A stretch of DNA of 63,962 nt from a bacterium (lineage in GTDB: Bacteria; Vulcanimicrobiota; Xenobia; Xenobiales; Xenobiaceae), in NCBI GenBank assembly GCA_017458675.1, contig JAFTAM010000182.1, forward strand, positions 1 to 63,962, read 5' to 3'. The translations under genes were made by a program, and so were the position numbers. The notes below the pieces were generated by a model. The model had not been told where the DNA came from and made no database searches. It saw only the letters and a list, made by a program, of their open reading frames with translations. Below, piece by piece: positions 3,609-11,814 of the stretch; within the stretch, counting starts at the first letter, position 1; the number at the start of each line of letters is the position of its first letter.

Positions 3609-3660
3609 TATAATATAAGGAAGCGCCTCTTGGGTGATATTGCCGCCCCGGAGGACGGCA
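3609..3660 (+). promoter_or_regulatory. Promoter -10 and leader hairpin of the peptide/radical SAM unit
   Basis: A consensus TATAAT lies at 3609-3614 in the short gap after the nitrilase gene; no good -35 is visible. About 30 nt further on, 3641-3660 can fold as TGCCG...CGGCA with a CCGG-rich loop. The peptide gene begins 26 nt beyond the hairpin. This suggests that the peptide and maturase have their own transcript with a structured leader. Confidence 0.5.
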
Positions 3661-3686
3661 CGTGTAAAATAAGGAGTATTTCTGTT

Positions 3687-3779
3687 ATGGCAGATACCAA
3701 AGAAATGAATCCCGTAATCGCCGCCGCTATCGGCGCCGAGCCCGAAGAAAAAGACTGCGTCTGCTGGGTTAAAGCGTGA
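3687..3779 (+). CDS. Candidate RiPP precursor peptide (30 aa, CVCW core)
   Basis: A 30-residue ORF with a strong Shine-Dalgarno (AAGGAG, 10 nt before ATG). The peptide has an acidic, Ala-rich leader-like part (residues 1-22, containing PVIAAAIGAEPEEK) and a short C-terminal part DCVCWVKA with Cys24, Cys26 and Trp27. Its TGA stop overlaps the GTG start of the radical SAM/SPASM gene (GTGA), so the two are translationally coupled. A tiny peptide with Cys/Trp at its C-terminus directly before a SPASM maturase is the usual layout of radical SAM RiPP systems (sactipeptides, ranthipeptides, cyclophanes, mycofactocin, PQQ). I do not recognise the family. The likely modified residues are Cys24, Cys26 and/or Trp27 (inference). 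Confidence 0.75.
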   Translation: MADTKEMNPVIAAAIGAEPEEKDCVCWVKA

Positions 3780-4876
3780 TTTCCGGCAAATTAAGGCCAG
3801 TTTTTAAATTAACCGAGTCCTGCAACCTCGCCTGTAAATACTGTTATCAGGAGGGCAAGCTGGACTCCGGTTATTTTATGAGCGAGGCCACCTTAGAAAA
3901 GGCTCTTTCGGAAGTCGCTGAAAATACTCAGGGAACTATGCACCTGCTTTGGTTCGGAGGCGAGCCTACCTTATACGGTATTAAGCGCTTCGCCAGAGCC
4001 ATGGAGCTGGTTGATAAGCACTTCGCCGGCCGTACCGTCTATCACGGCATGCAGACCAACGGTTCCTTAATTACGGAAGAATGGGCCGCTCTTTTAGCGG
4101 AGCGCAAATTCGCCGTAACCGTCAGCGTTGACGGTCCTCAGGAGCTTCATGACAGACAGCGTCCGCAGCGCACCGCCGACGGCAGGCCCAAGGGCAGTTT
4201 TGAAAAGGTAATGCAGGGCATTAAAAACCTGCATAACGCCGGCATATTTCCCCGGGTTTCAGCGGTAATAACTCCGGAAGCTCTGCTTCAGCCCGTTGAG
4301 CTGGTAACTTGGTACGAGAAACAGGGCTTTCACGAAATGGATTTCGTGCCCTCCACCCGCTACCACAACGGCGGCTTCGAGGTCGAAGTAAACGGAACTC
4401 AGTTTAAGGAATTTATCTTAAAGGTCTGCGAACGCTGGCTGGAGCTTAACAATCCTAAATTTAAAGTTCGCCTGCTTTCGGAAACGGCCCGTAAATTGGC
4501 CGGGCACGCTCCCCACTACTGCAAGCTGGAGGGCCGCTGCTCTCATTTCGTAGGTTTCGGCTGGAACGGCGACGTCTATCCCTGCGACGAGTTTTCCGGA
4601 ATGAAAGAGTTCTGTTTGGGCAACATTCATAAGAACACCTTAAAAGAACTGATGACCTCTGAAAAGGCTATTGAATTTTTCCGCCGCTGGGCGGAAATAC
4701 CGCCGGAATGCGCTTCCTGCAAATGGCTCCATTTCTGCCGCGGCGGCTGTCCTTGGGAGCGTCAGCTCAGCGGAAATCCCGACCGTCCCACGGTAATGTG
4801 CGAAGCTATGAAAGCTGTTTTTGAACGCCTCAGCAGCGAGATCCCCGGCAGCAGGGAACGCTGGAAAGCTGAATAA
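3776..4876 (+). CDS. Radical SAM/SPASM peptide maturase
   Basis: A 366-residue iron-sulfur enzyme. The N-terminal radical SAM core has the CX3CX2C motif at Cys16-Cys20-Cys23 (CNLACKYCY), the 'GGEP' motif (FGGEPTLYG) and 'QTNGSLI'. The C-terminal SPASM region carries nine cysteines at 249, 255, 270, 280, 312, 315, 321, 325 and 342, enough for two auxiliary 4Fe-4S clusters, including the typical CxxCx5CxxxC. The architecture is shared by anaerobic sulfatase maturases and RiPP maturases; no sulfatase gene is nearby, while a 30-residue Cys/Trp peptide is coupled to its start. The GTG start overlaps the peptide stop, and no other start fits as well. No transporter or leader peptidase is adjacent, so processing is either encoded elsewhere or not needed. 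Confidence 0.9.
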   Translation: MISGKLRPVFKLTESCNLACKYCYQEGKLDSGYFMSEATLEKALSEVAENTQGTMHLLWFGGEPTLYGIKRFARAMELVDKHFAGRTVYHGMQTNGSLITEEWAALLAERKFAVTVSVDGPQELHDRQRPQRTADGRPKGSFEKVMQGIKNLHNAGIFPRVSAVITPEALLQPVELVTWYEKQGFHEMDFVPSTRYHNGGFEVEVNGTQFKEFILKVCERWLELNNPKFKVRLLSETARKLAGHAPHYCKLEGRCSHFVGFGWNGDVYPCDEFSGMKEFCLGNIHKNTLKELMTSEKAIEFFRRWAEIPPECASCKWLHFCRGGCPWERQLSGNPDRPTVMCEAMKAVFERLSSEIPGSRERWKAE

Positions 4877-4902
4877 AACGTTTTATCCGCTAATGCAGAA
4901 AA

Positions 4903-4949
4903 TAAAAAATGTCCGGTCTTCATCTATGAAGACAGCGGACATTTTTTAT
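4903..4949. terminator. Bidirectional terminator between the radical SAM gene and a lipoprotein gene
   Basis: Long stem ATGTCCG-GTCTTCAT / ATGAAGAC-A-GCGGACAT with a 2-nt loop, flanked by A-run on the left and T-run on the right. It serves both convergent genes. Confidence 0.85.
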
Positions 4950-4968: not shown

Positions 4969-6291
4969 TTACTCTTCGGCAGCTTCAGTAACCGTAAACT
5001 CCATGCTGTCCGTAAAATTAGAGTTAGCGTCGAGAACAGCCTTCAAAACGGTGCTTCCAGCCCTTAAGCCGGTAATAAAGCCGTCTTCGGCAGAAATTAC
5101 GCCGTCTTCGCTCTCGGAAAGAGTATAAGCATACCTGTCAAGCTCATAATCGGCAGAAGAATAGCCTTTGCGGGTATAGGTACCCAAAACCCTGTAGGCA
5201 ACGCTTTCACCGACGGCGCAGGTATCAGAATCGGCGTCAATACCGATTCCGGTCAAAGTGCCGGTAACGACGGTTACCATACAGGTATCGGCGAAATTTT
5301 CTCCGCCGCAGTTTACAGAAGCGGTAATCGACACCTCGCTAGGCGCAATATCCTCTTCTGAATCGTCTGAAGAAGCCTTTTTGGGCACGATGAAACCGTA
5401 ATATCCGCTGACAATGTCGTTGTCGCCGGAGCTCCAGGTACTGTTGAGGTCGACGCAGCTGGTCTTTCCGTCGCTCCAGGAAGCCGTTACGCTGTTAATG
5501 CAATAATCGAGGCTGACAGGCAAAACCAAAGAGGTTTCATCAAAAGCCAGACCGGTAATCATGGCGTCGGTTACTTCTATATCAGCGGTATCGGAATAAT
5601 TGTAGAATCTAGCGGTAATGACGGCATTGCCTGCGGAATTTCCGTCAAACTCTTTTTTGCCTAACGTCGAGACTTCTTCGTCTCCATTTTCTTCAACATT
5701 GGAAATGACAGCGGAATTTGAGCTTGTCCACTCGCAGTTGTCCGAAAAAATCTGCAGATATTTTTTGCCGGTACCTAAAGCGGTATCAGTAAACTCGGCA
5801 ATAGTCGCCATGCTGATGCTGTCTAAGGTATGAATGCGATAATCCTTCTGCAGAATACGCAGTCTGTTCAAATTAGAAATGGCGTCAATATCTTCCCAGG
5901 CAGGATCGTTAATTTCGTAGACTTCTCCAATCTTAAGCGTCACAGGCTGAGAATAAAAGCCAATGACCTTATTGTCATTGTTGTAATAAGTCATGCTTAT
6001 TGAAACCGACTCGACCGGAACAGCCTGCAGCAGAATCTGCTGAGCCTTAACCAGATTAGCCGGGCCGAAGGTGCGATAGCCCTGCCGGTTGTAGCAGTAA
6101 TAAGACACCTTCTTAACATCGCTGCCCATGGTTCTGGCTTCAACATTATGCGTCACCAGAATAGAAGCGCGGGTTGCATCATTAAAGGCGTCGTCGTCAG
6201 AACAGGCGCTCAGAAAAGAACAGAAAGCCAATAGCAGACAGACGCACAGTACATAACTTATTTTATTAAATAACCGTCTCTTTTCAGACAC
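4969..6291 (-). CDS. Lipoprotein with Ig-like (BIG-type) domains
   Basis: A 440-residue surface or periplasmic lipoprotein. The signal peptide is followed by lipobox LSAC with Cys30. The rest has repeated beta-rich stretches, among them 'ITGLAFDETSLVLPVS', 'LTGIGIDADSDTCAVGES' and the C-terminal 'GFITGLRAGSTVLKAVL', which is the classic ending of bacterial Ig-like (BIG_2) domains. Start is GTG with an excellent AAGGAGGT Shine-Dalgarno. It follows the Asp-Ala-tract lipoprotein gene and shares its plan (lipobox, short Ala/Thr motif 'ATRAS', then Ig-like domains) but lacks a repeat tract. Function unknown; adhesion or cell-envelope scaffolding is the usual role for such proteins. Confidence 0.75.
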   Translation of the reverse strand: MSEKRRLFNKISYVLCVCLLLAFCSFLSACSDDDAFNDATRASILVTHNVEARTMGSDVKKVSYYCYNRQGYRTFGPANLVKAQQILLQAVPVESVSISMTYYNNDNKVIGFYSQPVTLKIGEVYEINDPAWEDIDAISNLNRLRILQKDYRIHTLDSISMATIAEFTDTALGTGKKYLQIFSDNCEWTSSNSAVISNVEENGDEEVSTLGKKEFDGNSAGNAVITARFYNYSDTADIEVTDAMITGLAFDETSLVLPVSLDYCINSVTASWSDGKTSCVDLNSTWSSGDNDIVSGYYGFIVPKKASSDDSEEDIAPSEVSITASVNCGGENFADTCMVTVVTGTLTGIGIDADSDTCAVGESVAYRVLGTYTRKGYSSADYELDRYAYTLSESEDGVISAEDGFITGLRAGSTVLKAVLDANSNFTDSMEFTVTEAAEE

Positions 6292-6396: not shown

Positions 6397-8337
6397 TTAG
6401 ACATTGGCGTCGGCATCGGCGTCAGCGTCGGCATCGGCGTCAGCGTCGGCATCGGCGTCAGCGTCGGCATCGGCGTCAGCGTCGGCATCAGCGTCAGCGT
6501 CGGCGTCGGCGTCAGCGTCAGCGTCAGCGTCGGCATCAGCGTCAGCGTCGGCATCAGCGTCGGCATCAGCGTCAGCGTCGGCATCAGCGTCAGCGTCGGC
6601 ATCAGCGTCAGCGTCGGCATCAGCATCAGCGTCGGCATCAGCATCAGCGTCGGCATCCGTATCGGTGTCATCGTCGCCCTCTTTGTTGACAAACGCCTGC
6701 ACCTTAGAGCTGGTAAAGGTTCCTGAGTTTCCATTGTAGACATAATACAAGTTGTAGAGATCGTACATCTGACTGTTGGCAGTATCTAATACAAAGATGC
6801 CGTCCTCAAAAGTAAACGAGCAGGTTCCGTAATTAACGCTGCTTACCATCGAATGCTTGGCAGTTACATTGTTGTAAATACCGAATACATCGCTCTTAAC
6901 AGCTTCTGCGCCGTCAGCGAACTTAACCAGGAAATATCCGGAAGCTTCGCCGGTATAACCGGATCTGGGCGCAACATTATAAACGGTTTGATTGGCATTT
7001 TCAGTCGCGTCGTCAATATTCATAGTCACGCTGAGCTTCGCAGAACCGGGGGCGGATTCAACCTCAACGCTGTCGCTGTATTCATTGCCCTTACTGTCTA
7101 TGGCATGAACGGTAACAGTATCGGAAGCGACAGCGGAAGTATCAAAGGCATATAAATTGTAGGCAGAGAGCGTGTTGCTGCCTCTGAAGCTGGAGGTATT
7201 TGAATGCGACCAGGATACATTATCAAAAATTTCAGCTTCAAAGCCGGGATTACCGTTGTCAGAAACATACGTTCCGACAGCTGTTAAAGGAATTTTACCT
7301 ACTAAATAATTAACGCCGGCCACGCTGACATCGTCCTGGCCAAAACTTTCCTCTACAGCGATAACATCGGCGCCTTCAGCAAGATCCTTATCATCGATGC
7401 GGACGGCTCTAAGTTCAGCGTCGGTTACATAAGCGGTAGTTCCAACCGAAGTATTGAAGACATTTACAACATTTACAGAAACGTCCTGAGCCCCGTAATA
7501 AGCGCCGTAATAATAACCTGGGGTAATCTCGTCTTCCGTCTTGTCAAAAATGAATTTAGCTGATCTGAGATAAGCGCTTTCATCGACATTATAATCGGCG
7601 AACCAGCTTAAATCCAATTCGGTAACAGTCCCGTCCGGTTTAGTGTAATCGGCGGCTGTCTTTATCCAGATATATTCGCCCTTATCAATATGGTTGGGGT
7701 ACATGCAGAGCTCGACATCGCCCATACGCGACAGGAAATCAGAATCCATGCCGGGATTGCTTACTTCAGCAACCTTATTCTGACCTTCGCTCGTCCAGTT
7801 TAAATTATCAACACCAACGGCGATAACAGTATCGGCTGCATCAAAATAATAGGCGCATACCCTGGAAGCAGCAACAGGCACTCCGGAAATGGTAACATCA
7901 AACTCGTTATCATTCTTTAAAGAGATTTTAGCTGCGTCGGCATCGGCGTCAGCGTCGGCATCGGCGTCAGCATCGGCATCGGCGTCGGCATCGGCATCGG
8001 CGTCGGCATCGGCGTCAGCATCCGCATCGGCGTCGGTATCGGTATCGGCGTCGGTATCGGCGTCGGCGTCATCGTCGCCTTCCTGAAATTCATGCTGATA
8101 AGAGCCAAATGAGACTCCGTCGCCGCTGAAGGTATATATTGCGTAAACCGCTTCCTCAGGAACAGCGGTGCGGGCAGCTATAGTTTCATAATTAAAGGTC
8201 ACGCTGCCTAAGGATACAGCAGCGGGATCGGGCTTGGTCAAGGAAGTATCGGAGCCGCATCCGGCGGCGGTTATACAAACTGCCAAAGTCAAGGCAGCGG
8301 TAACGCTCGAAAAACCAAATCGAGTTAGATTAGCCAT
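6397..8337 (-). CDS. Lipoprotein with two Asp-Ala repeat tracts
   Basis: A 646-residue lipoprotein. The chosen ATG at 8337 has GAGAGG 9 nt upstream; the longer frame to 8379 lacks a ribosome site and would spoil the signal peptide. The lipobox is ITAAGC. A first domain is followed by an Asp-Ala tract (DNA 7932-8083), then about 400 residues of beta-rich sequence with Ig-like features, then a second long Asp-Ala tract that runs to the C-terminus (DNA 6406-6682, ending DANV). Both tracts start after the same EGDDD motif. The tracts are extremely acidic and probably extended, calcium-binding or spacer-like (inference). It is similar in plan to the neighbouring Asp-Thr lipoprotein. Confidence 0.8.
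6406..6682 (-). repeat. C-terminal Asp-Ala codon repeat tract
   Basis: About 90 residues of alternating Asp-Ala encoded by hexamers of the type GAYGCN. Asp codons (GAT/GAC) and Ala codons vary in an ordered way, so units longer than 6 bp were copied. Long open frames on the other strand here are by-products of the repeat. Confidence 0.9.
7932..8083 (-). repeat. Internal Asp-Ala codon repeat tract
   Basis: About 48 residues, starting EGDDD, with mixed Asp-Thr units at its N-terminal side and then pure Asp-Ala. It sits between two beta-rich domains of the same lipoprotein. Confidence 0.9.
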
Positions 8338-8520
8338 TAGAACAATCCTCTCGGGCAAAAGATTAACGCGCCGACTCAAAAACGCGAAAAAGAAATATAA
8401 CTATGTGGTTTTCCCACTTTCTCTTTAGGTTCCTTCCTGCTTTTGCTATGACTTGCCCAGTTAAGTAAACTAACCATTTCGAACTCAAGCCGGAAGATAT
8501 CTGCATAACGAATATCGCAT

Positions 8521-8563
8521 AAAAAAATTCCGTTCCTCCCATCGGAAGAACGGAACTTTTTTG
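8521..8563 (-). terminator. Terminator after the Asp-Thr-tract lipoprotein gene
   Basis: Stem AAAATTCCGTTC / GAACGGAACTTTT with a 12-nt loop, A-run on one side and T-run on the other, 35 bp past the stop codon of the gene ending at 8598. Confidence 0.85.
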
Positions 8564-8597
8564 TCACAGATTAAACTGTTTGACTGACGTCCAAAGC

Positions 8598-11039
8598 TTA
8601 GATGTCGCTGTCGGTATCCGTATCGGTATCGGTGTCCGTATCGGTATCGGTGTCAGTGTCCGTATCGGAATCGGTGTCGGTGTCCGTATCGGTATCGGTG
8701 TCCGTATCGGTGTCCGTATCGGTATCGGTGTCCGTGTCGGTGTCCGTATCGGTATCGGTGTCCGTGTCGGTATCAGTATCGGTATCGGTGTCCGTATCGG
8801 TATCCGTGTCCGTGTCGGTATCTGTGTCCGTATCGGTATCGGTGTCAGTGTCCGTATCGGTATCCGTATCGGTATCGGTGTCCGTGTCGGTATCGGTATC
8901 CGTGTCGGTATCGGTGTCATCGTCACCCTCGGAAGCTACGAAGGTGGTCGCAGCGGGAGTTCCGAGGCCTTCGATCTCATCGACCACGGCGGTACCAGTA
9001 CCGGTAGCGGTTTCAGCAATTTCAGCGGTGAACAGGACTACGCTGTCAGGAGCGACTTCGACGGTAGCGAAATCAGCGGGATCAACGGCGACTTCAGGAG
9101 CGGCCTCGGGCTGCAGATCCTCGGGAATCTCGAAGTAGCAAACTTTAGTATCAGTAACGAATCTGCCGACTAAGGTCAGCTCGACTTCCTGACCGGGAGT
9201 GACAGCCATCTTATCGGTGTAGCCGGCAAGACTGTCGTCGGTGATGCCCAATACGATTTCGGAACTAGCGGGCATAGCGGCGATCACGGTAGCTTCTTCG
9301 CTGTCGACTTCTTCGTAAGTAGCGGTCAGGGAGATTTCGGTCTCAGCATCGAGTCCAGCGACGGTTACAGCGCCCTTGTCAGCGGTAGCGGCGTCGTTGT
9401 CAGCGGTGATTTCGGCCTTCTCGGTGACATCCTGATCCTCGGGAACGGGGCCCTTGCCCTCTTCCTCGGTGTAGATAGCCATTACCTTATAGTTAATGGT
9501 ATTGACGGCGTAAACCTTATCGCTGTCATCATCGGAATCGGAATCAGTGTCCGTATCGGTATCGGTATCCGTGTCGGTATCGGTATCCGTGTCGGTATCG
9601 GTGTCCGTATCGGTATCGGTATCCGTGTCGGTATCGGTGTCCGTATCGGTATCGGTGTCCGTATCGGAATCGGTGTCCGTATCGGTATCGGTGTCCGTAT
9701 CAGTATCGGTGTCCGTATCAGTATCGGTGTCCGTATCAGTATCGGTGTCCGTATCGGTGTCCGTATCAGTATCGGTGTCCGTGTCGGTGTCCGTATCGGT
9801 GTCGGTGTCCGTATCAGTATCGGTGTCCGTATCGGTATCGGTGTCGCCCTCAATATCGGAATCGGTGTCGGTGTCCGTGTCGGTGTCCGTATCGGAATCG
9901 GTGTCGGTGTCCGTATCGGTGTCCGTATCAGTGTCGGTGTCCGAATCGGTATCGGTGTCCGTATCGGTATCGGTGTCCGTGTCGGTGTCGGTGTCCGTAT
10001 CGGTGTCCGTATCGGTATCGGTATCGGTGTCCGTGTCGGTATCGGTGTCCGTATCGGTGTCCGTATCGGTATCGGTATCCGTGTCGGTGTCCGTATCGGT
10101 ATCGGTGTCCGTATCGGTATCGGTGTCCGTATCAGTATCGGTGTCCGTATCGGTATCCGTGTCCGTGTCGGTATCGTCGTCACCTTCAACGGGGACAAAC
10201 TGAGCGGTCTCCTGACCCATGGCCTCATCGACCACTACCATATTGGCGGTATTCGTTTCGGCATCGAAATACTCAGCTTCCGCATCGGCGGGAGCGATAG
10301 TTACCGCACTAACATCCTGGTCGGTAACATAAACGGTATTCATGTCAGCGCTGAAGTCTTCGAAAGTAGCTTTGATCGCATCTTCAGTACCGTACTCGCC
10401 GCCCATGTAGGAACCGTCTTCCTGAGGAATCAAAACGGTCTCATCCTTGATGCCGGAGAAAGTGGCGAAAGGAGTGACGTCAACCTTGTTGCCGTCTACA
10501 TCCACCAAGAAAGCCTGGAACCTGACATAATCTTCGGGAGCGATAACATAGTTATCAGCCTCAGCCACGAAGGGGGTTTCTTCGTTCAGATCTTTGATGG
10601 AAGGATCGGCTACAACGCCGCCGTATACGCCGTTCATGGCGTACCAGGTAATCTCATCAGCGCCAATGGCAACGACTTCGTTTGCAGCGTCATAATAGAC
10701 AGCGTTGGCAGTTACAGCGGTTTCAGAAACGCCGACGACTTCGAGGTCGTACTCAGTATCCTCAGCTCCGTGCTTGAGGGCGAGAGCGTCAGTCGTAGCA
10801 ACGGAGACGCCGTCTTTGTCGACGAAATTGAATTTTACGCTGGTAATATCGGGGGTCACGTCGGAGCGAGCAGCGAGCTCAGCCAACAGGTTGTACTGGA
10901 AGACAACTTTATTCTGTCCGCCAAACAACGGATTGGGAGTAGTAGAACCGCTGTCACCGCAGCCAGTGGCCATCAAACCTAGACCTAAGCTAGCTACAGC
11001 AGCAAAAGAAGCGAAACCAAAGACATTCTTCTTAGCCAT
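8598..11039 (-). CDS. Lipoprotein with two Asp-Thr repeat tracts
   Basis: An 813-residue lipoprotein from ATG at 11039 (MAKKNVFGF), with lipobox MATGC at Cys27. A GTG five codons upstream sits only one base from AAGGA, whereas the ATG start aligns with the paralogue at 13326. Layout: N-terminal beta-rich domain, a central tract of about 215 residues of Asp-Thr with rare Asp-Ser, a second beta-rich domain (KVYAVNTINYKV to FVASEG), then a C-terminal tract of about 110 residues ending DSDI. Outside the tracts it aligns with the lipoprotein at 11815-13326, which has no tracts at all. The tracts resemble the SD repeats of staphylococcal Sdr proteins in being acidic stalks; role here unknown. Confidence 0.85.
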   Translation of the reverse strand: MAKKNVFGFASFAAVASLGLGLMATGCGDSGSTTPNPLFGGQNKVVFQYNLLAELAARSDVTPDITSVKFNFVDKDGVSVATTDALALKHGAEDTEYDLEVVGVSETAVTANAVYYDAANEVVAIGADEITWYAMNGVYGGVVADPSIKDLNEETPFVAEADNYVIAPEDYVRFQAFLVDVDGNKVDVTPFATFSGIKDETVLIPQEDGSYMGGEYGTEDAIKATFEDFSADMNTVYVTDQDVSAVTIAPADAEAEYFDAETNTANMVVVDEAMGQETAQFVPVEGDDDTDTDTDTDTDTDTDTDTDTDTDTDTDTDTDTDTDTDTDTDTDTDTDTDTDTDTDTDTDTDTDTDTDTDTDTDTDTDSDTDTDTDTDTDTDTDSDTDTDTDTDTDSDIEGDTDTDTDTDTDTDTDTDTDTDTDTDTDTDTDTDTDTDTDTDTDTDTDTDTDTDTDTDTDSDTDTDTDTDTDTDTDTDTDTDTDTDTDTDTDTDTDTDTDTDSDSDDDSDKVYAVNTINYKVMAIYTEEEGKGPVPEDQDVTEKAEITADNDAATADKGAVTVAGLDAETEISLTATYEEVDSEEATVIAAMPASSEIVLGITDDSLAGYTDKMAVTPGQEVELTLVGRFVTDTKVCYFEIPEDLQPEAAPEVAVDPADFATVEVAPDSVVLFTAEIAETATGTGTAVVDEIEGLGTPAATTFVASEGDDDTDTDTDTDTDTDTDTDTDTDTDTDTDTDTDTDTDTDTDTDTDTDTDTDTDTDTDTDTDTDTDTDTDTDTDTDTDTDTDTDTDSDTDTDTDTDTDTDTDTDTDSDI
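8601..8930 (-). repeat. C-terminal Asp-Thr codon repeat tract
   Basis: About 110 residues of Asp-Thr with a few Asp-Ser, from EGDDD to the last codons DSDI. The DNA is a patchwork of GAY-ACN hexamers with higher-order units of 18-24 bp. Confidence 0.92.
9529..10184 (-). repeat. Central Asp-Thr codon repeat tract
   Basis: About 215 residues from EGDDD to DSDSDDDSDK. It is broken once, near 9845, by DSDIEGD, a motif that joins the exact C-terminal ending (DSDI) to the tract-entry motif (EGD), as if two tracts were fused. Confidence 0.92.
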
Positions 11040-11814
11040 AATGTTTATAGACACATCCTTTTATTATTCTCAAGCAGGCTAATCCTCATAATAGGAGCTT
11101 CCTGCCGCATTACATCTTGCGGAAAATTCCCTAAACGCGGGAACATCCCTGCTGAATTTTTTAAAATTTAATTCTCAAAGCCTGCATACCGCGCTAAATA
11201 CAATACACAGACAGCCGACCGTCATTCTCTTTGCCGTAAAAAAAGATCCACAAGTTTCTTTACGGTTTATTTTCCGAGGGTATCCCCGCAGCGTATGCCA
11301 GCGGAAAACCTCTGAGATAGGTTATAAGGTTATAATGACAAGATCGAGGGCCATAATTCTATGGCGCCTCTTCAACACCTTTAATATATATTCTGCCGAT
11401 TTGTTTCCTTCAAAGGCAGGAAACCGTTTATTCGGCCGCCGCCTCTAAATTACGCAAATACTTGTGGAAGCCTATAATATATGCGGCAAATTATACATTT
11501 ATTAAAGCAAATATGCAAGCCTAAAAGCCGAAAATACAGCCAATTTTTAGAAATTTTACGTATATTTGCAATAAAAAAACGCATATAGCCGACGAGTGAG
11601 CCTCTATTTACTATCCGTCTTCCCCGTCTGCCGTTCAGGCGGTCTTATATCATCCTGAGCCGGCTGAAGAGCCCTGCATACATACTATTATATATATTTG
11701 GATTCTCCGCTTCAATCAAGATGGCGAACGATAAGAGCGAGGACGGTCTCCGGCGCTTGCGGCAGCAGCGCCGCGAAGCCAGAATCAGCTTCGCGGCGAA
11801 AGACAAACAGACTT
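11040..11814 (-). other. Long intergenic region between two lipoprotein genes
   Basis: About 775 bp without a credible gene. It should hold the promoter of the Asp-Thr lipoprotein, but no clear -35/-10 pair stands out. It contains AT-rich stretches around 11480-11600 and several small inverted repeats, such as GCGGCAGG...CCTGCCGC-like segments near 11100. At its right end is the hairpin 11769-11798. Confidence 0.5.
11769..11798 (-). terminator. Strong hairpin after the tract-less lipoprotein gene
   Basis: Perfect 11-bp stem CGCCGCGAAGC / GCTTCGCGGCG with an 8-nt loop, 16 bp past the stop codon at 11815. No U-run follows on the minus strand, so it may be a 3'-stabilising hairpin or a weak terminator. 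Confidence 0.5.

Follow-up and report, generated by a model that had tools for sequence, protein, structure and literature searches.

A small open reading frame and its adjoining radical SAM/SPASM gene as a candidate Trp-Lys RiPP pair in class UBP9

Does a 30-codon open reading frame that overlaps the start of a radical SAM/SPASM gene encode the substrate of that enzyme, and if so, which residues of the peptide would be modified? The two genes lie in a window of 63,962 nucleotides, which is the whole stretch of bacterial DNA analyzed here. An earlier note on the window had described them as an RiPP-like pair, in which the CVCW end of the peptide would be cross-linked through its cysteines. The locus contains the following features.

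3609..3614, plus strand: TATAAT, a candidate −10 element, read from the sequence
3671..3676, plus strand: Shine-Dalgarno sequence AAGGAG of the precursor gene, read from the sequence, 10 nt before the ATG at 3687
3687..3779, plus strand: putative precursor peptide gene, 30 aa, MADTKEMNPVIAAAIGAEPEEKDCVCWVKA, indicated by the reading frame, homologues in 10 other genomes and purifying selection
3708..3722, plus strand: conserved leader stretch NPVIA, from the precursor alignment
3753..3776, plus strand: C-terminal core DCVCWVKA, from the precursor alignment and a pattern search
3765-3767 and 3771-3773, plus strand: codons of Trp27 and Lys29, which, like Met1, are invariant in the precursor alignment
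3776..4876, plus strand: predicted maturase of the radical SAM/SPASM type, 366 aa, beginning with GTG, from Pfam, NCBIfam, an AlphaFold2 model and Foldseek
3821..3844, plus strand: radical SAM motif CNLACKYC (C16, C20 and C23), whose cysteines are invariant in the maturase alignment
4520..4801, plus strand: SPASM region, C249 to C342, from the maturase alignment and alignment to 4k36/4k37
4902..4949, no strand assigned: terminator hairpin including A- and T-tracts, in the gap where the maturase gene and a lipoprotein-like gene converge

Reading of the sequence bore out the arrangement of the two genes as first described, with AAGGAG before the 30-codon frame and the TGA of that frame (3777-3779) overlapping the GTG of the SPASM gene (3776-3778). 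Comparable GGAG or GGAGG sites precede the homologous frames of loci L043, L039, L040, L041 and L044. The locus had also been credited with a private promoter, a leader hairpin and a private terminator. TATAAT is present as reported, but no sigma-70-like −35/−10 pair passed a consensus scan, and the private promoter is unproven. The leader hairpin did not hold up, as it was not above shuffled sequence (z = −0.12), and the window gave no match to Rfam. The terminator hairpin is strong (RNA fold −24.8 kcal/mol, z = −7.7), but because it is sited between convergent genes, it may serve both.

To relate the small frame to the enzyme, a precursor profile was searched against 149 genomes of the phylum and gave 11 matches, one in each genome that carries a close maturase. 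Since linked ORFs had served to build the profile, those matches were expected, and the informative results are that the precursor is absent from the remaining 138 genomes and that there are no unlinked copies. On intact contigs in 10 of the 11 genomes, the maturase gene is directly preceded by a small ORF whose product ends in W-x-K-[G/A], such that the frame and its C-terminal motif recur beside homologous maturases in nine species other than that of the window. For G005, the precursor (L109) ends at a contig edge, and the final 41 nt of that contig match those with which the maturase contig begins; as the 41-nt stretch looks repetitive, we infer rather than observe adjacency across the break. 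The maturase frame of G015 is broken in the assembly. The search for a small ORF upstream of SPASM genes in relatives, which the earlier note had advised, thus found the ORF kept in all genomes of the maturase subfamily (11/11), and a conserved precursor adjoining a tailoring enzyme is what is generally expected of RiPP systems. We conclude that genome comparison confirms the pair as a real, conserved two-gene system. In four loci of one genus (L039, L040, L041 and L042), roughly 100 nt or more is inserted between precursor and maturase; the insert carries a repeated CTGAATCCGCCGCC-like segment and coincides with the contig break in G005.

A second maturase copy in G009 (L046:1-420 and L073) is nested in the clade, and the 417 nt of contig that precede its match contained no recognizable WxK precursor. 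Likewise, no WxK peptide was found upstream of more distant homologues in the phylum (approximately 30% identity), and virus contigs and plasmids yielded distant relatives alone. Relatives of the maturase in named records (39 to 76% identity) come from metagenome-assembled genomes (MAGs) labeled UBP9, RUG807, CPR1, SZAS-1, Armatimonadetes bacterium and others. A scan of GTDB species contigs, which used two short sequence patterns and was not exhaustive, returned close relatives solely from those lineages, plus three further matches at 24 to 29% identity. The class genomes are MAGs that are 61 to 100% complete, and absences are therefore soft. We conclude that, among the sequences searched so far, the pair appears only in UBP9, which we take to be a class within Eremiobacterota in GTDB. 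The maturase family forms one clade (100/99) that includes the G009 paralogue, and its tree tracks the family membership of the genomes, with some absences, which suggests that the system is old and mainly vertically inherited within the class.

Nine precursors were aligned to determine which parts of the peptide are conserved. The peptides begin with a variable N terminus, followed by a stretch resembling [N/H]-[P/A]-x-[L/I]-A and then by a conserved tail with the consensus D-[T/S/C]-[V/I/F/L]-[S/T/C]-W-[V/F/A]-K-[G/A]-stop; the L048 peptide departs from this pattern with G for D and E for T/S/C in the tail, and its leader stretch has I-L. Met1, Trp and Lys alone are invariant across the nine. 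The residue between Trp and Lys is V, F or A and never Gly, and the residue directly before Trp is Ser, Thr or Cys in every precursor (9/9). An alignment had been proposed as a check on the conservation of Cys and Trp, and it upheld the Trp but not the Cys: the cysteines of CVCW are common only to the window species and G004, its nearest maturase relative, and their positions hold Ser or Thr, and once Glu, elsewhere. The expectation that modified residues lie near the C terminus was supported. Upstream of the main precursor in L048 (7521-7625), a second frame ending in DCLTWVKDPLKLQ has the same motif without the leader stretch or an ATG, and by its sequence is a decayed or divergent duplicate.

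Substitution patterns indicated that the peptide itself is under selection. The dN/dS values were 0.17/0.77 for the window versus L043 and 0.014/0.39 for L039 versus L109; pairwise ratios ranged from 0.04 to 0.58, with most below 0.35 and all tested pairs below 1. These values show purifying selection; translation of the ORF is thus very probable, as is a requirement for the sequence of its protein product. Compared with NCBIfam and Pfam, the precursor matched no family, the best score being a marginal one to a YxD cyclophane RiPP (E = 0.07, one member).

The predicted enzyme matches the radical SAM and SPASM families of Pfam (PF04055, E = 3.9e-21; PF13186, E = 2e-10), and the CX3CX2C motif first read in it was confirmed as C16-x3-C20-x2-C23. 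Nine auxiliary-cluster cysteines had also been counted. Cysteines of that type are present, but the C-terminal half contains 10, of which eight are invariant (C249, C255, C270, C312, C315, C321, C325 and C342) and fit both auxiliary-cluster sets of anSMEcpe. In particular, C255, C261, C276 and D277 of anSMEcpe align with C249, C255, C270 and D271 of the window enzyme, and the anSME-like Asp (D271) is invariant in the maturase family. An AlphaFold2 model of the maturase (pLDDT 86.5, built from eight sequences) was closest in Foldseek to anSMEcpe (TM 0.83), followed by ChlB (TM 0.82), which is named a multiple cyclophane synthase in the references of PMC12636437; SuiB scored approximately 0.6.

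Curated models placed the enzyme near known families and in none of them. The top NCBIfam model was TIGR03942 (243 bits versus a cut-off of 349), and the next, DynA of dynobactin maturation (209 versus 450), was the best RiPP-maturase model; no cut-off was reached among the best 25 models. Models of cyclophane maturases were not passed either (AmcB, 145 bits versus 425; GrrM, 119 versus 310; YhhB, 136 versus 445; FxsB, 106 versus 370; XyeB, 87 versus 450), nor were those of DarE (113 versus 650) and WgkB (NF050035, 32.6 versus 650). The earlier reading of the genes as an undescribed precursor and maturase pair was supported, in that no curated family covers them. In the tree, a sulfatase-maturase-like clade of the same phylum is separate from the maturase family (100/100). 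We conclude that the maturase resembles anaerobic sulfatase maturases and ChlB in predicted fold yet forms a clade of its own.

The peptide tail had been thought to match no known precursor class, a claim that did not survive comparison with tryglysins, which have a [S/C]-W-x-K motif and a one-residue tail, and darobactin, in which W-x-K is cross-linked. The seven-residue cores of tryglysins, VNSWGKH and VNCWGKH, contain a ring system formed from Trp and Lys, with a mass change of −4 Da for tryglysin A (PMC8092268). Like the window pair, the tryglysin system of Streptococcus (WgkA/WgkB) has a very short precursor (21 aa) with the maturase gene directly after it, a C-terminal [S/C]-W-x-K plus a single residue, and a Ser/Cys exchange directly before Trp (PMC8092268). 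It differs in that x is Gly there and Val, Phe or Ala here, such that W-G-K is not found; in that WgkB belongs to a different SPASM branch, as its model score indicates; and in that the window pair has next to it neither the RRE protein nor the transporter nor the Rgg/SHP control of wgk. Membership in the WgkB family is rejected, and tryglysin stands as a working analogy.

Other SPASM systems offer partial parallels. Triceptides join residue i to i+2 (PMC11002830), and as in triceptide and three-residue cyclophane systems (XncB, OscB/GrrM, YxdB, YhhB and ChlB) and DynA, a SPASM enzyme here is paired with a peptide that has an aromatic residue i and a partner at i+2 near the C terminus (Trp27/Lys29). 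Unlike those systems, the window enzyme is far below their model cut-offs and the precursors match no known family; moreover, the partner is Lys, not the Asn, Asp, Arg or Ser of XncB, OscB and MscB (PMC11002830). The bond that characterizes triceptides is a C(sp2)-C(sp3) cross-link. Darobactin contains a Trp-x-Lys carbon-carbon cross-link within its core, at W-S-K (PMC9055067). The W-x-K is shared, but the darobactin precursor is 58 aa, the window peptide has a single Trp and no W-x-W for an ether link, no DarBCD transporter is present, and the enzyme scores far below DarE, so neither the W-x-W-x-K core nor the DarE-family enzyme of daropeptides was found. In streptide, a SPASM enzyme joins Lys to Trp through a carbon-carbon bond (PMC11002830), but the order and spacing differ (K-x-x-x-W), and that enzyme (StrB/SuiB) is less similar in fold. 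Anaerobic sulfatase-maturating enzymes are nearest by sequence and fold, with the same auxiliary Cys pattern and an Asp after the third Cys, but they form a separate clade with a cut-off above the window enzyme's score, and no sulfatase substrate was found.

One way to account for that likeness is that the genome uses this enzyme as its anaerobic sulfatase maturase, the small ORF being incidental, as TIGR03942 is its best curated model, anSMEcpe is its nearest solved structure and L047 has an adjacent PF00884 gene. However, the score falls below the TIGR03942 cut-off, and the distinct anSME-like clade has its own members beside PF00884 genes in G008, G011, G012, G013 and G017, with CAPSR present in the one G012 sulfatase read. 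The L047 gene lacks the formylglycine motif C/S-x-P/A-x-R and was dropped as support because its motif region is without Cys or Ser. That motif is also missing from the window genome's only strong PF00884 match (E ≤ 1e-12), and G004 gave no match at that threshold, the genomes being incomplete. We rejected a sulfatase maturase identity by score, by clade, by the separate anSME-like genes beside sulfatases and by the missing formylglycine motif, and we consider it extremely unlikely. Alternatively, the small ORF could be a mere translational-coupling or attenuation leader rather than a substrate, as the stop and start codons overlap in the window and in several relatives. Such a role is highly improbable, as both leader and core are conserved as protein with dN/dS below 1, the peptide stays intact in the genus with an insert between the ORFs, the overlap leaves an attenuator no room, and substrates are commonly encoded beside SPASM maturases. 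We conclude with high confidence that the small ORF and the SPASM enzyme are a precursor and its maturase.

If the pair makes an RiPP, the modification could still differ from a Trp-Lys bond. Oxidation of Ser, Thr or Cys, epimerization, conversion of Val to cyclopropylglycine or a mycofactocin-type C-terminal decarboxylation would each be a chemistry of the core, and the enzymes that the maturase most resembles, anaerobic sulfatase maturases, oxidize Ser or Cys. The Ser, Thr or Cys directly before Trp in all nine precursors could be such a target, and the SPASM enzyme TvgB turns Val into cyclopropylglycine (PMC9062424). Nevertheless, the −1 position is Thr in two species, the −3 position is Glu in one, Val is replaced by Phe, Ile, Leu or Ala elsewhere, and it is Trp and Lys, rather than these residues, that are invariant; we regard other core chemistry as unlikely. 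The proposal that the two cysteines form a thioether or a Cys/Trp cross-link draws on the peptides of the window species and G004, which have Cys in both places. Cysteine as the basis of a general mechanism was rejected because it is not conserved: both positions hold other residues in all other maturase-keeping species, the peptides lack the conserved Cys donors of sactipeptides and ranthipeptides, and a Ser/Cys exchange before Trp leaves tryglysin A/B chemistry unaltered (PMC8092268). A Cys-based cross-link in the window peptide is quite improbable. It could also be that Trp and Lys are conserved for recognition rather than reaction. The second G009 maturase copy, with no such precursor in the upstream sequence, and the lack of a linked exporter or peptidase likewise weigh against a Trp-Lys cross-link.

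We consider it somewhat probable that the precursor tail carries a Trp-Lys cross-link, because the invariant i,i+2 Trp-Lys resembles the tryglysin core, darobactin W-S-K and triceptides, and a carbon-carbon bond would fit the invariance of Trp and Lys in a peptide acted on by a SPASM enzyme that has two auxiliary clusters. The precursor would consist of a short leader, recognized in the region of [N/H]P-x-[L/I]-A, followed by a core ending in D-x-x-x-W-x-K-[G/A]. The co-translated enzyme would cleave SAM and abstract hydrogen from the side chain of Lys, with C-beta the most likely site, or from two positions if the reaction is tryglysin-like. The resulting Lys carbon radical would join the indole of the Trp two residues earlier, with electrons leaving through the two auxiliary clusters. 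The product would be a Trp-Lys carbon-carbon cross-linked tail, with a mass shift of −2 Da for a three-residue cyclophane or −4 Da for a fused ring like the tetrahydrobenzindole of tryglysin, and a housekeeping peptidase would release the short tail. We infer the cross-link, its atoms, the processing and the role from these comparisons.

The neighborhood provides few clues to the role of the product. As the earlier note had stated, no exporter or peptidase adjoins the window pair, nor does an RRE or a transporter, and no accessory gene recurs across loci, as no neighbor is common beyond close relatives. A nitrilase-family gene lies upstream, and a convergent lipoprotein-like gene lies downstream. 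An AI-2E family transporter gene is located 2 kb upstream of the window precursor and approximately 8 kb from the maturase in L043, a proximity that may be plain synteny. An antibiotic, a signal and a cofactor are all candidate roles. The convergent neighbor (4969-6291) has a lipoprotein-like start and no Asp-Ala/Asp-Thr tandem repeat. Farther along, the minus strand of 6397-11054 carries two genes of the lipoprotein-like kind in which Asp-Ala and Asp-Thr repeats form very long tandem arrays (period 18 and related periods, approximately 35 copies at most).

Other SPASM loci were observed in the phylum. In the window's own genome, contig C185 (22046-24621) encodes tandem SPASM proteins of approximately 520 aa (L003 and L004), neither of which meets an NCBIfam cut-off among the models listed; similar pairs are present in many genomes of the phylum. 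Contig C64 of the same genome (L005:895-2547) encodes a SPASM protein that resembles nif11-class maturase 3 models; its gene is immediately preceded by that of a Gly/Pro-rich protein of 187 aa in which MYGVF segments recur, and the locus is a possible second peptide-modification system. In G138, a protein ending in Trp-Asn repeats (WYNWGNWNNWNNWRNWMNWGNWGNW) is encoded upstream of a SPASM enzyme (L072); its ORF ends approximately 150 nt before the radical SAM motif, a layout like that of GrrA/OscA-type cyclophane precursors.

Taken at the level of sequence, the pair would be a Trp-Lys RiPP, a kind already known, with its own maturase clade. A bolder reading, which we regard as possible but doubtful, is that it represents a new RiPP class ancestral to UBP9, in which an RRE-less enzyme of the sulfatase-maturase branch evolved Trp-Lys bonding independently of WgkB and DarE and makes a small product that may be retained inside the cell as a signal or cofactor, given that no exporter or protease gene is linked. 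Comprising two small genes without an accessory protein, the pair is an easy target for co-expression and a compact scaffold for cross-linked peptides. As a similar Trp-x-Lys tail would be paired with three maturase branches (WgkB, DarE and the window enzyme), convergent evolution of one cross-link would become testable. The pair would add a precursor and maturase family in an uncultured class whose RiPPs are little studied.
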